In this document: positions 18,661 through 25,293 of the stretch, one piece after another
How the letters are laid out: the number at the start of each line of letters is the position of its first letter
Numbering within the stretch: the stretch's first letter is position 1
DNA from: Deltaproteobacteria bacterium
Lineage (GTDB): Bacteria; Desulfobacterota; Desulfomonilia; UBA1062
Direction of reading: 5' to 3'
Assembly: GCA_017992605.1 (NCBI GenBank)
Contig: JAGOOG010000003.1
Location: forward strand, 140,161-193,518
Length of the DNA: 53,358 nucleotides
The notes under the pieces: generated by a model
What the model was told of the DNA's origin: nothing
The model's database searches: none
Seen by the model: the letters and a program-made list of their open reading frames with translations, nothing else
Translations under genes and position numbers: made by a program

Positions 18661-20502
18661 TCAGGTCACGATCACCCAGATGAACAGCACGGTGAGCGCC
18701 AGGCCCAGGAGCAGGCTGGCAAGCCCGATGGTGGCAGAGAGGAGCTTGAGCGGGATGCTCGGGTGCTCCCGCTTGAGATCATCGAGTTTCCCCTCGGCCA
18801 CGAGGCGCTCATACTCCTCGGGACGGTCCCTTTGCAGCTCTTCCAGGGTGTAGGTGCCCGTGAAGATGAGGCGGTCCATGGGGAACTTGTCCGGCACGAA
18901 GTGCGTGTTGAAGAAGTGGACCGTGAAGATGAAGAGCGCTGCCAGCAGCGCCTCCTCCGAGTGTACCAGGGTCGCCACGTTGAGCACCCAGCCGGGTACG
19001 ATGTATGACGAAAGCTCGGGGTTCCACAGCAGCGCGCCGGAGCCGCCGATGGCGAACATGCCCCAGAACACGGCCCAGAAGTCGAATTTCTCCCAGTACG
19101 ACCACCGGTCGAACTTCGGCTTCTCCCCCCTGTTGAAGAACCATCTGACCATGCCCTTGATGTCCTCCCAGTCCTTCATCCTCGGGAACAGGGAGTCCGG
19201 GCTGAAGAGCCGCTTCGTCCAGCCCTTGAAGCCGACGCCCGGCGGGAACAGGAAGAGCAGGCAGCGCACGGCCACCACCGCGAAGAGCACCATGAGGACC
19301 ACTGCCGCGATGCGGTGGAAGAGTCCGGCCATGGGGGCGCCGCCCCAGAAGCCCATGAGCAGTTTCGCCCAGGCCGCCTTGGGGTACTTAAGCGGGAACC
19401 CTGTGGTGACCAGGGTAAAGAAGGAGAGGATGAGCAGCACGTGCATGGCCCGGTCCATCCGGGAGAAGCGCTGGATGTGCTGGAATCCCTCCTTGTCGGT
19501 CATGCAGGTCTCGGGCAGGATGCCGCTCTTTTCCCGTTCGTGGTGCTCCCAGTAGCTCTTGCGCCACCACAGGAGCGTGTGGGACCAGAAGAAGACGAAG
19601 GTGAATATCAGGAGCCCGGACATGAAGACGAAGGTCCAGAACAGGGCCGGGTAGTTGTGCCGGTCGTGGTAGTCCGGGTGTGCCTTGTAGTCCACGAATC
19701 GCTTGTGGAATCCCGTGTGGCAGCGGCCGCAGTTGGCCACCAGGTTGTCCGGGTGGATGGAGGAGCGCGGGTCGGTCTTGGGCAGGATGTTGTGGGTCTG
19801 GTGGCAGTCGGCACAGCCGGCCACCAGCGTGGCGAACCCGACGCCCTGGACCTTGCCGTGGTAGGTCTCCTCGTAGTACTCCACCACCTTGTCCGAGAGG
19901 TTGTTCCGCTGCATCATCGCCGAATCGTCGTGGCAGGAGACGCACTTGTCGTTGTAGAACATGCGGGCCTCTTCGGGGTATGTCGAAAGAGAGGTGTGGA
20001 ACACGCGGGTGTCGTGGAGGCCGTGGCAGTCTCCGCAGGCCGCGGCGTCGTGGTTGCCCTTGAGCACGGCCTCGGCGTGTCCCGAGGTGACGTACTCGTC
20101 ATTGCCGTGGCACTGGGTGCACACCTCGATGGTGCGGATCTTGATGTCCTTGGTGGCTGCCGTGCGCGTGTGCACGTCCCGGTGGCAGTCCACGCAGCGG
20201 AAGTCCTCCTGGAGGTAGTGAAAGTTTTTCCGATACTTCTCGGCTATTCCGGCGTGGCACTTTCCGCAGGTAACCGGTGCCGGCCGCAGGTGGCCAGTCA
20301 TGTGGGCGTTCAAATCCGTTACGTCACTGTGGCAGCTCAGGCAGCCGTTCTTCGCGTGCACCGAGGCATCGAAGCCGGCGGTGTACATGGCCCCGTAGTG
20401 GCAGTCCTGGCAGGTTCTCGCAGAGGCGAAGACGGGAACCATGCACAGGACCCACGCCACGAAGAGTGTGCAAAAGAATGCCGAGAGATGGTTTCTCCTC
20501 AT
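18661..20502 (-). CDS. Nine-heme cytochrome c fused to a membrane cytochrome b (CbcL-like)
   Basis: The 613-residue protein has a signal peptide, then nine CXXCH heme-c sites (CQDCH, CLSCH, CGKCH, CVDCH, CTQCH, CGDCH, CVSCH, CADCH, CGRCH) in residues 30-275. After that come about six membrane helices of the di-heme cytochrome b561/HydB type. This layout matches Geobacter CbcL-type quinol oxidases, which pass electrons from menaquinol to periplasmic cytochromes; the likeness is from memory. The start at 20502 is chosen because its ATG overlaps the stop of the preceding rhodanese gene (ATGA), which indicates translational coupling. It is the last gene of a five-gene cytochrome/rhodanese operon and likely its membrane base. 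Confidence 0.88.
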   Translation of the reverse strand: MRRNHLSAFFCTLFVAWVLCMVPVFASARTCQDCHYGAMYTAGFDASVHAKNGCLSCHSDVTDLNAHMTGHLRPAPVTCGKCHAGIAEKYRKNFHYLQEDFRCVDCHRDVHTRTAATKDIKIRTIEVCTQCHGNDEYVTSGHAEAVLKGNHDAAACGDCHGLHDTRVFHTSLSTYPEEARMFYNDKCVSCHDDSAMMQRNNLSDKVVEYYEETYHGKVQGVGFATLVAGCADCHQTHNILPKTDPRSSIHPDNLVANCGRCHTGFHKRFVDYKAHPDYHDRHNYPALFWTFVFMSGLLIFTFVFFWSHTLLWWRKSYWEHHEREKSGILPETCMTDKEGFQHIQRFSRMDRAMHVLLILSFFTLVTTGFPLKYPKAAWAKLLMGFWGGAPMAGLFHRIAAVVLMVLFAVVAVRCLLFLFPPGVGFKGWTKRLFSPDSLFPRMKDWEDIKGMVRWFFNRGEKPKFDRWSYWEKFDFWAVFWGMFAIGGSGALLWNPELSSYIVPGWVLNVATLVHSEEALLAALFIFTVHFFNTHFVPDKFPMDRLIFTGTYTLEELQRDRPEEYERLVAEGKLDDLKREHPSIPLKLLSATIGLASLLLGLALTVLFIWVIVT

Positions 20503-21248
20503 TTCACCTGCCTCGTGCCTTCGGAAAATGAATTCCACGCCGCCATGCCACCGAAGAGCCGTGTGACCTTGAACCCCTTGCGGGCGAGGTAGCTGGCAGC
20601 CAGGAAGGAGCGGAATCCCTGGTCATCGACCAGCATCAGGGCGCGGTCGTGGGGCAGTTCATGGTACCGTTCGTGGAGCTGGTGCAAAGGGATGTTGAAG
20701 GCCCCTTCCAGGTGCCCCTTGACGAACCTGTCCCCTGATCGGATATCGAGCACCATGAACTCGGGGTGGCGGGCCATCCAGGCCGTGAACTCGCTGGCCT
20801 TCACCGAGGACACCGGCATGCGCAGCACGCGCTGAACGGATTCGAGCCTGTACCCCGCCGCTTTCCACGCGGGCATGCCCGCCTCGAGCACATATACATC
20901 CTTTATCCCGGCAGCCACCGCCTCGTCGGCGGCCAGGCAGCTACGGGTGCACACCTCGCTCTCGCAGTAAATCACGAGCTTCCTGTCACGGGGGATGCGG
21001 GGAAGGCTGCCCTTGAACTCCTCGCAGGCGATGCACAGCGAGCCCGCGATCCGGTGGTCCAGGCACTCGATGCGGCTCATGACGTTGACCAGGGTGAGCT
21101 GCTCGGTCCTCATCCAGGCATCGAGGGTCTCGGGTTTCACTGTCTTCCATCCCCCTGCGGACACGGGAGAGGCAACGAGCATGAAAGCAAGGGTCACCAG
21201 TGTCATAAGGCCTGTGCGATTCAAAGGACGAACGGGTATGTTATTCAT
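20499..21248 (-). CDS. Exported double-rhodanese protein
   Basis: The 249-residue protein has a signal peptide (residues 1-32, ending SPVSAGG) and two rhodanese-like domains, about residues 35-135 and 145-245. The first has an active-site-like loop with Cys95 (YCESEVC); two further Cys (73 and 76, in LCIACEE) lie upstream in the same domain. The second has VDDQGFRSF where the catalytic loop would be, with no Cys, so it is probably inactive. Rhodaneses carry sulfane sulfur as a persulfide. Its start overlaps the preceding cytochrome gene by eight bases, and its stop overlaps the start of the cytochrome b/c gene, placing it firmly in the electron-transfer operon. Confidence 0.88.
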   Translation of the reverse strand: MNNIPVRPLNRTGLMTLVTLAFMLVASPVSAGGWKTVKPETLDAWMRTEQLTLVNVMSRIECLDHRIAGSLCIACEEFKGSLPRIPRDRKLVIYCESEVCTRSCLAADEAVAAGIKDVYVLEAGMPAWKAAGYRLESVQRVLRMPVSSVKASEFTAWMARHPEFMVLDIRSGDRFVKGHLEGAFNIPLHQLHERYHELPHDRALMLVDDQGFRSFLAASYLARKGFKVTRLFGGMAAWNSFSEGTRQVK

Positions 21249-23070
21249 GGCTCGGCACTTCCTCGTATCCCCAGTCCAGCATCTGGGGGGATGCGTTGGG
21301 AGCCTTGGGCGTCGGGTAATCCTCCTTGAGGAACCGCCCTACTGACTTCACCTTCATCTTGGTGAAGAACGGGGACTTCTCATCATGGCAGTCGGTGCAG
21401 CCTTTGGCCCCATATGTCCGCTTCTTCGCAACCCCCTGCACATTGTGCCAGATCGGCAGGCTTATCGTGTTTCCGAAGGGCAGCTCCGCCGAGGCGACCT
21501 TGCCTCCCTTGAGCTCATAGACCTTGTCCGCAACAAAGACCGCCTTCGTTCTGCCGAGCCGGTTCATGGCCCTGAGCATCTTGGCGATGTCTGCCTCGGT
21601 GGCCACGGTGTGACGCCTGAGCCTTTTCCCAGACACGTCCCTGACCTCCACCGCAGTTATGCCCGAGCACAGGCGGAAGGCCTCGCTCACCACCCGGGAA
21701 TTCAGGGGTATGATCTGTCCCTGGGTCCCCTTCTCCCCGAACCACTGGGCCGTGTGCAGGGCCACAGGCATGTACCGCTCGCCCTGTGAACCCTTCATGC
21801 CCACAATGGCAAGCCAGGGCGTCCACGGTTCCCGGGCCGTCTTGGCTGCATCGAGCTGCGAAATGATCGCTTCCGCGCCCTGTGATGTGTACCTGAAATT
21901 CCTCCCGGTGGAGAGATCCAGCAGGTACGCCCCCAGGGCGGGCAGGCCCGTCACATGGCATGCCGTGCAGGACAGCAGGCGCAGGTGGAACGTGGCGTTG
22001 GGGAGCATGTCCACGTGGGTCTGCACCGGGTTCGGGGCCCTCCCGCCCTGGGCCAGATGGCAGGCGACACAGGTCTTCATGCCGGTCTGCCTGTAATCGC
22101 CGGAGGCGGAGGCTCCGCCGATGCGATGGCCGAGCCTTCCTCCCGGCCCCGCCTCGGCCAGGGTGTGACAGTCCACACACCGGAGTCCCGCCTTTGCATG
22201 GACATCGTCACCCGCGCGGTACTGGGTCCCGGTACGGAGCGCCTGCATGGTCCCATGGCACTGGAGGCAAGAGCCCGACGTGACCTTTGTGCGGATGAGT
22301 CGGCCCGAAAGCCTGCCATCACCGGTGAACATGCCGTTTTTCCAGGAATATGTCACCGCCGGCCTGCTCGAGAATTCCCAGACACCTTTGCCCTCGCCGG
22401 GGGACCACACGCGGCCGGCAACCTCGCCGAGTCCTGCACCGGCAGTGGGAGCCCACCGGTAATTCCGGGAGGCGACCTGCGCGTTACGCCTGTCCAGACG
22501 GTACCCGTTCAGGTGACACATGAGACAGTCACCCTCCAGGACGCCGCTGGCCCTGAAACGGCTGTGGCCGTCCGGCGTGACGCGGGACTGGAAATGGGGG
22601 TTCCTCGGTGAAGAAACGATGCGCTCAGCCTCCACGAGGTTCGACTGCGTACCTGTGGCCCTGTCCAGACTGAGACACTCCATGGGGCCGCCCCCCGGAT
22701 GGACCCGGGCGTTGGCGGCGATCCAGTCGTAGACGGCAACGCCGGCATAGGGTGTGGGGCCGAAATCGTCAGGGATGAGGTCGGGGGGGAGATTCACGGG
22801 CCTGGGGTCGGTCTTCTTCTTCGAGAAGCCCATCAGGAAATGCTCCCCCTGCGTGATCGTGGGATAGTGGTGGCAGGCCCCGCAGGTCTTTTTCGGGCTG
22901 TAGGGGTCCGCAGCATTGTCCGAAGGGGTGATGCGCTCCCCTGCCTCATTGCGCAGCCACACATCGACATGCACGGCAGACACCTGGCCGATGGCCGGGC
23001 GCACCATGAACAGGCACAGCGTTCCTGCCGTGAGGAGGACCACGATGCAGAGAGCCTTTCTCGGCGCCAT
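21241..23070 (-). CDS. Seven-heme periplasmic cytochrome c
   Basis: This 609-residue protein has a signal peptide (residues 1-28) and seven CXXCH heme sites: CGACH, CLMCH, CLQCH, CVDCH, CVACH, CTACH and CTDCH. They are spread widely, with long heme-free stretches of 100-200 residues between some of them, including about residues 365-565. That is unlike compact cytochrome c3 and more like large enzymatic or scaffold multiheme proteins. The family is not one I can name. The wide spacing leaves room for a catalytic or substrate-binding domain, but none is identified. It is the third gene of the operon; a strong hairpin lies just before it. Confidence 0.85.
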   Translation of the reverse strand: MAPRKALCIVVLLTAGTLCLFMVRPAIGQVSAVHVDVWLRNEAGERITPSDNAADPYSPKKTCGACHHYPTITQGEHFLMGFSKKKTDPRPVNLPPDLIPDDFGPTPYAGVAVYDWIAANARVHPGGGPMECLSLDRATGTQSNLVEAERIVSSPRNPHFQSRVTPDGHSRFRASGVLEGDCLMCHLNGYRLDRRNAQVASRNYRWAPTAGAGLGEVAGRVWSPGEGKGVWEFSSRPAVTYSWKNGMFTGDGRLSGRLIRTKVTSGSCLQCHGTMQALRTGTQYRAGDDVHAKAGLRCVDCHTLAEAGPGGRLGHRIGGASASGDYRQTGMKTCVACHLAQGGRAPNPVQTHVDMLPNATFHLRLLSCTACHVTGLPALGAYLLDLSTGRNFRYTSQGAEAIISQLDAAKTAREPWTPWLAIVGMKGSQGERYMPVALHTAQWFGEKGTQGQIIPLNSRVVSEAFRLCSGITAVEVRDVSGKRLRRHTVATEADIAKMLRAMNRLGRTKAVFVADKVYELKGGKVASAELPFGNTISLPIWHNVQGVAKKRTYGAKGCTDCHDEKSPFFTKMKVKSVGRFLKEDYPTPKAPNASPQMLDWGYEEVPSHE

Positions 23071-23137: not shown

Positions 23138-24034
23138 TTACGGTTCCATGGGGAGATTCTGATCTGCTGACCACTCCTCGCTGGATCCATCGTACACCTT
23201 GACGTCGGTGTAGCCGAAGGCCTGGGTCAGGGGGAACCACCATCCCGTGGCCACTTTTCCGGTATCGCAGTACAGGACGATTTCCTTGCCAAGGTCTTCT
23301 CCAACCACTTTCACGGCCAGGGCCTTCAGTTCGTCCATGGGTTTGTAGGTACCATCTTCCTTGAAGAGCTGTGAACCTGCGGGCAGATTGACCGCCCCCT
23401 TGACATGGCCTGCCCTGGCGACGAAGTCGAGCTTCTTCTCTCCGCTGAAGAAGGCAGGCTCCCGTACGTCCACGATCAGGGCGCTTCCCACCTTGCCGGC
23501 AAAGGCGTCCTTCGTGAGGAAGATGTCCTTGTTGAACTTGCCCTTATGCTCTTTTTCTTTGGGCTTGGCAGCATCTGTCGAGAGCGCCTTGCCGTCTGCG
23601 GCCCACTTGGTGGTCCCGCCGTCCAGTACAGCCACGCTGGGCACCCCGGCATAGATGAAGGTCATGGCCGCCCGGGTCATGCTGAACCGGTCCGAGGGGG
23701 TGTCGTTGATACCCGCCACCACCACCAGGGAATCGGCCCCGATGCCATTGGAGGACAGGATGTCCCTGAGGTCGTCGTCAGCCGGGAGCTCGTTCCTCAT
23801 GTTGTTCTTGCCCGGTGCCACTATATTGTAGAAGATGTTGATCGCCCCGGGGATGTGGCCGGCTTTGTATTCTTCCACCTTCCGGATATCCACGACCACC
23901 AGGTTCGGGGTCGTCAGGTTCTTCTCCAGCCACTCCACCGATACTACGGGGTCTATCCCGCGGGCCATGACAGCAGCAGGAACAAGGAGCGCAAACGCCA
24001 CCACCATGATTGTGAACGCCTTGAGATGCTTCAT
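23138..24034 (-). CDS. Exported two-domain rhodanese sulfurtransferase
   Basis: The 298-residue protein has a signal peptide (residues 1-24, VPAAVMARG) and two rhodanese domains of the thiosulfate or 3-mercaptopyruvate sulfurtransferase layout. The second domain carries the catalytic Cys in VLYCDTGKVATGWW, while the first has VAGINDTPSDR, without Cys, at the same place, which is the usual pattern. It would transfer sulfane sulfur in the periplasm. AAGGAGGAAGT just before the ATG at 24034 fixes the start; the open frame continues 126 bases upstream, but without a signal peptide. The gene lies 20 bases after the selenocytochrome gene in the same operon. Confidence 0.9.
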   Translation of the reverse strand: MKHLKAFTIMVVAFALLVPAAVMARGIDPVVSVEWLEKNLTTPNLVVVDIRKVEEYKAGHIPGAINIFYNIVAPGKNNMRNELPADDDLRDILSSNGIGADSLVVVAGINDTPSDRFSMTRAAMTFIYAGVPSVAVLDGGTTKWAADGKALSTDAAKPKEKEHKGKFNKDIFLTKDAFAGKVGSALIVDVREPAFFSGEKKLDFVARAGHVKGAVNLPAGSQLFKEDGTYKPMDELKALAVKVVGEDLGKEIVLYCDTGKVATGWWFPLTQAFGYTDVKVYDGSSEEWSADQNLPMEP

Positions 24035-24054: not shown

Positions 24055-25293
24055 TTAATGAGTTATGGGTTTCGGGACATGAATCAGTCCCTGATTGGCC
24101 CTGGATCCGTCCTTGAGAAGGGTTCCCCTGGTGAGAAAGTCCTTCCGTTCCGTGTGACATATGTCGCAGGACCGGGTCCGGTCCGTCCGTTTCTTTATCG
24201 TGTGGGCAGGGGTGTCCCAGTAGTTGGGTAGGCGGTCGAAGTGCTCCTGCTTGATGCCTGCATGGACAAAGGTATCACGCACGGTGGGTATGAGCCGCAG
24301 CGTGGTGACCTCTTTGGGGTTTCGCGGATTCTTGCCGAGGATAAAGCCCGGCTTGGCCTCCTTTGCTTCTCCCTTGTGGCAGGTGTAACAATTCCGGTAC
24401 TGGCCTGCTGCATGGCACCCGTAGCAGCTCACCTTGCCCTTGTGGGCGTCGTGCGCCAGACGGGTGCGGAGCGTGTCCGACTTGATGGCCTTGTGACAGT
24501 TCGTGCACTTGGGCCGGTCCTTCACGTCCTGCTTGGTCAGGTATCTCGTGCCGTCCCCGTGCATCTCCTCCTTCTTGTGACAGTCCACGCACATCATACC
24601 CTTCTGGTAGTGAATATCCGTGGAGCCGCCGTATTCACCGGTATATTCAGGGTATACGCGGCCCCCGTGGCAGAAGGCGCAGGTCTTTCCCTCGTTCTTC
24701 TTGATGAACTTATGACCCTGGATAAGCCCGAGGCTGATGCCCGATACCGCAGGGGATTTCACGTGACAGGATCCGCAGGAGGCATGGCAGCTCCGGCAGG
24801 ACTGCTCGAAGACCTTGCTGTCGAAGGTCTTCACCTCCTCCTTGGAGAACCTGGGAAGGACCCCGTGCCGCTGGCCCAAGGAGGTGTAGTGGAGGGCCTT
24901 GCCATAGTTCGCTGCGGCCTTCTTGTGGCAGGCTGCACACATCTTCAGATCGTCGGAGGGCCGCTTGACCATGCCGGCATGGGCCTCTTCCTTGGTGGCC
25001 CCGGCCTCGTCACCCTTGTGACATGAACGGCATCCCTTGGAGAGATGTGGATCCTTTTCCAGGAGCCCGGCATCCACGAGGTAGCCCTTGTAGTAGTCCT
25101 CCGCCCGGACCGGCGGGGGTGCACCCGCTCACCCCGCCCCCTCGACATGAATCTTGGGGGGTATGACCAGGGTTTTCATCTTCTCACCGTCCGTGTGACA
25201 GACCACACAGGAGCTGGTCGTCGCAGATGGAGTGAAAGAGGGAATCGAGACAAAGAATGCAACCAACAAGGAGATGACGTAGAGGTATCTCAT
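24055..25293 (-). CDS. Eleven-heme cytochrome c with in-frame UGA, probable selenoprotein
   Basis: The frame starts at 25293 with a signal peptide (residues 1-24), a first heme site CVVCH (29-33), then meets TGA at codon 55 (25131-25129). The same frame continues without change to 24055, adding 357 residues with ten more CXXCH sites, including the close pair CRSCHASCGSCH. The 17 codons just after the TGA (starting AGAPPPVRAEDYYKGYLVD) have no start codon with a ribosome site but read as normal protein. A hairpin of SECIS type with loop GGUCCG starts 12 bases after the TGA. I therefore read the TGA as selenocysteine, giving 412 residues. Alternatives are a recent nonsense mutation or sequencing error. 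The ribosome site before 25293 is weak. It is the first gene of the cytochrome/rhodanese operon. Confidence 0.75.
25098..25119 (-). promoter_or_regulatory. candidate bacterial SECIS element in the cytochrome gene
   Basis: Counting the T of the TGA as base 1, CCGCC (16-20) pairs with GGCGG (27-31) around the loop GGUCCG (21-26); CC at 13-14 can pair with GG at 33-34 across one mismatch. The loop begins 17 bases after the TGA, and its first two bases are G, as bacterial SECIS rules require. The GGUC core equals that of the classic fdhF element. Confidence 0.65.

Follow-up and report, generated by a model that had tools for sequence, protein, structure and literature searches.

The question raised by this locus is whether a TGA codon within the reading frame of a multiheme cytochrome c terminates the protein or is read as selenocysteine (Sec) and, if the latter, what such a protein might do. 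The gene lies on the reverse strand at 24055-25293 of the window, by which we mean the whole 53,358-nucleotide stretch of DNA analyzed, and its frame (25293-24055) opens with ATG, spans 412 codons and ends at a TAA, with a single in-frame TGA at codon 55 (25131-25129). Eleven CXXCH motifs are encoded, one before the TGA and ten after it, confirming the continuation of the frame proposed in the preliminary description; the N-terminus of the 412-residue product is hydrophobic and, judged by eye, signal-like, and the protein matches Pfam Cytochrome_C7 (6.9e-13). An ordinary gene-calling program would report an open reading frame of 340 residues that begins at GTG 25077 and has neither the signal peptide nor the first heme, as had been anticipated. 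Comparison with related sequences makes it very likely that the UGA is decoded as Sec55 of an exported 11-heme c-type cytochrome, an assessment that applies to the decoding and not to the sulfur-reductase role proposed below.

Scanning a single genome from each species yielded 27 full homologues with 50-81% identity, most of them in assemblies titled Deltaproteobacteria or of the Syntrophales type, including Smithella and Syntrophus. All but one of these (26/27) have a TGA at exactly the codon 55 position, typically within the motif GEGUAGAPPPV; the exception is L034 (6001-7242), where a Pro-containing insertion replaces Sec. An alignment-based search across the phylum identified the cytochrome in 46 of 395 genomes, with exactly one TGA in 47 of the 52 matches, and the more distant matches form a sister clade (motif GEGUGG) and a third clade (VAGUGVSAP), in both of which the TGA again falls between heme 1 and heme 2. 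The site holds Sec in 48 of the 50 sequences compared across the three clades, the other two having Pro and Tyr and none having Cys, and it is flanked by a G in all 50. Substitutions around the TGA number 96, 90 and 287 at codon positions 1, 2 and 3, respectively, and this third-position excess indicates that both sides of the TGA are translated in this frame.

The preliminary description had pointed to either Cys or TGA in homologues as the informative pattern at this position; TGA is present at the same codon, and a Cys form of the family was not seen among the 50 sequences. Cys-containing homologues are usual for bacterial selenoproteins, though not required, and on these alignments the family looks to be obligately Sec-containing, with Sec probably part of the protein's working center rather than a dispensable variant of Cys. 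The genome G263 has two Sec cytochromes (L073 and L115), in the second of which the motif has diverged to GHGUAGPPPRV, and G353 carries on contig C28 a second, frame-broken copy (L116) together with an intact copy elsewhere. At L124 (G367, contig C82) the Sec site is occupied by Tyr and a two-domain rhodanese is fused to the C-terminus.

The hairpin expected for bacterial Sec insertion is found where it had been described, starting 12 bases past the TGA (25116-25101, reverse strand), with a stem of CCGCC (25116-25112) and GGCGG (25105-25101) closing the loop GGUCCG (25111-25106), which is 17 bases from the TGA. Among 40 distinct sequences of clade 1, the clade of the window's gene, 93.8% of the stem cells are paired, as against 37-62% for versions slid along the sequence, and the loop starts with NGU in all 40, mostly as GGUC or AGUU. 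Double changes that preserve a pair are seen at L009, where G-C becomes U-A, accompanied by an Ala to Glu change, and at L073, where C-G becomes G-C and one Pro and one Ala change go along with the pairing. At codon +8 (n = 27) there are 14 departures at position 1, 13 at position 2 and none at position 3, while codon +9 is GCG in 26 of the 27 sequences; this reverses the normal coding constraint and fits selection on RNA structure. The clade 1 covariation is modest on its own, with 22 of 5000 shuffles reaching the observed level, and a C-C mismatch interrupts the stem in 8 of the 40 sequences. The sister-clade hairpin is 92% paired, with exchanges among U-A/G-C, C-G/A-U and G-C/C-G/A-U pairs exemplified by GGCUCC-GUU-GGAGCC versus GGAGCC-GUU-GGCUCC, and its covariation was reached in 0 of 2000 shuffles, a count that is not a probability, as shuffle counts are inflated by relatedness among the sequences. 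We consider with high confidence, from these patterns, that the hairpin guides decoding of the UGA as Sec55 by SelB and tRNA-Sec.

The host genome encodes most of the machinery that such decoding calls for. A profile match to SelB above the cut-off, a tRNA-Sec (selC) with a TCA anticodon, and SelD are all present, so that three of the four genes named in the preliminary description were recovered; selA was not, as neither two profiles nor one SelA protein found a match in the 63 contigs of the assembly. SelD has an in-frame TGA of its own in the active-site motif GAGUACK, making this gene (L050, C24:130880-131806), with the TGA lying within MERKIRLTSTVHGAGUACKIGPE, a candidate selenoprotein itself. 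Two of four genus mates have a selA match and two have none; one of the latter, G030, and the host, G000, are both represented by assemblies that are approximately 98% complete. The simplest reason for the presence of selB, selC and selD without a selA match in the host would be a gap in the assembly, with another route conceivable. SelA scored above the cut-off in 43 of 45 other genomes carrying the Sec cytochrome, but it is also found in 356 of 395 genomes of the phylum sample, so its co-occurrence with the cytochrome is weak support; among the 10 homologue genomes tested for selB, 9 scored above the cut-off.

Two other accounts of the TGA are extremely improbable. In one, the locus would make two products, of which the first is a short peptide stopped at the UGA and the second a 10-heme cytochrome of 340 residues initiated at GTG 25077; the GTG-started frame is indeed present, but the internal GTG is not kept among homologues, the TGA and the stretch upstream of it are both conserved, and cytochrome c maturation requires a signal peptide, which the downstream piece would not have. 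A sequencing error, a pseudogene or plain readthrough of a stop with another amino acid is an equally poor account, which one genome alone could not have ruled against, but the same TGA occurs in dozens of independent genomes, never as TAA or TAG, with homologues that run past the site, a conserved hairpin and the Sec machinery present. The conservation of the TGA together with the third-position substitutions makes sequencing error, a pseudogene or reinitiation very unlikely, and the independent genomes exclude a misread base. The proposal of an exported 11-heme cytochrome with Sec55 and a bacterial SECIS element is thus supported by the comparative evidence, and we regard the family as a real and apparently undescribed family of selenoproteins.

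The genes downstream suggest what the cytochrome might do. On the same strand the order is Sec cytochrome, rhodanese 1 (23138-24034), a 7-heme cytochrome c (21241-23070), a double-rhodanese protein, rhodanese 2 (20499-21248), and a protein that joins a 9-heme cytochrome c to a membrane cytochrome b561 domain (18661-20538), the last likely a quinol-linked module. Rhodanese 1 is an exported two-domain protein (PF00581, 1.9e-34) that starts 20 bases past the cytochrome stop, is preceded by AGGAGG, and has its catalytic Cys within the YCDTGK of its second domain, a residue kept in 26 of 26 aligned sequences. In all 26 Sec-bearing loci among the close homologues it comes right after the Sec cytochrome, and a rhodanese adjoins the sister-clade gene in 8 of 8 loci examined; the remainder of the gene run, including the 7-heme cytochrome, is common to about ten loci. 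Seven Smithella-like loci have, in place of the b561 module, an upstream NrfD, which belongs to the family of polysulphide reductase membrane subunits, and a 4Fe-4S protein; genes for ResB and for cytochrome-c assembly lie near these loci. The Sec cytochrome in the NrfD loci is fused to six further hemes, and this 17-heme form was seen at L015, L017, L019, L022, L023, L026 and L032.

The Sec-less L034 has no rhodanese 1 and no 7-heme gene and retains rhodanese 2 and the b561 gene, a single example of a locus that lacks both Sec and rhodanese 1. A functional connection between cytochrome and rhodanese is supported by their fusion at L124. A tie between loss of Sec and loss of the rhodanese Cys was considered and rejected for this genome, G367, where the first rhodanese domain is without a Cys and the second keeps it.

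We tentatively propose, from the gene neighborhood and general rhodanese chemistry, that the Sec cytochrome may form the terminal subunit of a respiratory reductase located in the periplasm and acting on sulfane sulfur, be it polysulfide, thiosulfate or elemental sulfur. Quinol electrons would enter through a membrane module, the b561-multiheme protein here and NrfD with the 4Fe-4S protein in the Smithella-like relatives, and would travel along the hemes of the Sec cytochrome. The exported rhodanese would hand sulfane sulfur to Sec to form a selenenyl sulfide, which the hemes would then reduce with release of sulfide. Such an enzyme might, more speculatively, represent a molybdenum-free respiratory sulfur reductase with a Sec active site in a multiheme cytochrome, loaded by a rhodanese and supplied with quinol electrons via its hemes.

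The main rival to this role is that the cytochrome could be a selenite or tellurite reductase working along the lines of ExtKL in Geobacter, in which case the rhodanese would handle reduced selenium, a reading that we consider unlikely. In Geobacter, ExtKL and the rhodanese ExtH are encoded in one cluster, and loss of ExtI impairs both selenite and tellurite reduction (PMC5877670); rhodanese 1 does match the ExtH model NF040901 at 3e-18, but with 66 bits this is far under the cut-off of 200. Moreover, none of the ten proteins of the gene run that were scanned matched models for the ExtI porin, ExtJ or ExtKL, the part that bears Sec has no relation to its counterpart in ExtKL, and the NrfD or b561 neighbors fit general respiration. 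Less probable again is that Sec55 has a structural or redox function as the ligand of a heme, through a selenolate-heme bond that tunes electron transfer, the protein being a carrier and not a reductase. Sec does lie between hemes 1 and 2, and outside the CXXCH motifs only nine His are conserved (50 sequences) for the 11 hemes, so that up to two hemes have no conserved His in the second ligand position; that position could be filled by less conserved His, though, and the constant rhodanese partner suggests chemistry. An AlphaFold2 model built from 24 aligned homologues, with the distant clades left out, has a pLDDT of 49.5 and a pTM of 0.36 and is too poor for placing Sec relative to the hemes or for a fold search, and solved structures gave weak heme-repeat matches only. 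The description of Sec as near the first heme therefore holds along the sequence and not as a statement about space.

These observations add a selenoprotein family that spans the phylum, with the 46 carriers among the 395 sampled genomes, and whose members standard gene calling would truncate at the UGA, with loss of the signal peptide, the first heme and Sec. Since no Cys form was found, published search methods that look for Cys/Sec pairs could overlook the family. Electron disposal in anaerobes related to Smithella and Syntrophus is an open question, and the presence of quinol-linked modules together with the constant rhodanese partner suggests that these organisms have a respiratory enzyme that has gone unrecognized.

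More than 110 prokaryotic selenoprotein families are known, three of them heme-related: ExtKL and, with Sec members listed, the GSU2204 family (NF041027) and the octaheme tetrathionate reductase family TIGR04315 (2026 review, PMC13188914). NCBIfam scans gave no match to NF040886 (ExtKL), NF041027 or TIGR04315 for this cytochrome or for the distant clades, and none of the NCBIfam selenoprotein models is matched by the cytochrome family. In the open literature we found no description of a multiheme cytochrome that has Sec within this motif, only ExtKL and the entries of the review, and the text of the deep-Sep paper makes no mention of cytochrome or heme.

The closest parallel is with ExtKL, a Sec-containing pentaheme cytochrome of Geobacter encoded beside a rhodanese gene (PMC6148476, PMC5877670). 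Both are multiheme c-type cytochromes of Desulfobacterota-type bacteria with one UGA-encoded Sec and an adjacent rhodanese, and ExtH, like rhodanese 1, is exported and adjoins the Sec cytochrome. In ExtKL, however, five hemes come first and Sec follows in a heme-free C-terminal part with the motif GHRIPDGUPSK, whereas here Sec comes after heme 1 within GEGUAGAPPPV, with ten hemes beyond it. Membership in ExtKL was rejected, as neither this cytochrome nor anything else in the host genome matches NF040886, Sec lies outside any heme-free C-terminal domain, and the GHRIPDGUP motif is absent; a profile comparison aligned only the heme stretches, with a probability of 15%. The cytochrome shares the principle of ExtKL, a Sec multiheme cytochrome partnered with a rhodanese, and is not an ExtKL member. 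A second likeness is to the Psr/Nrf complexes, in that a membrane module of NrfD and a 4Fe-4S protein adjoins the Sec cytochrome in seven loci. No gene matching a molybdopterin catalytic subunit (PsrA) in size is present among the conserved neighbors within 6 kb of these NrfD loci, and the Sec cytochrome may take the place of that subunit.
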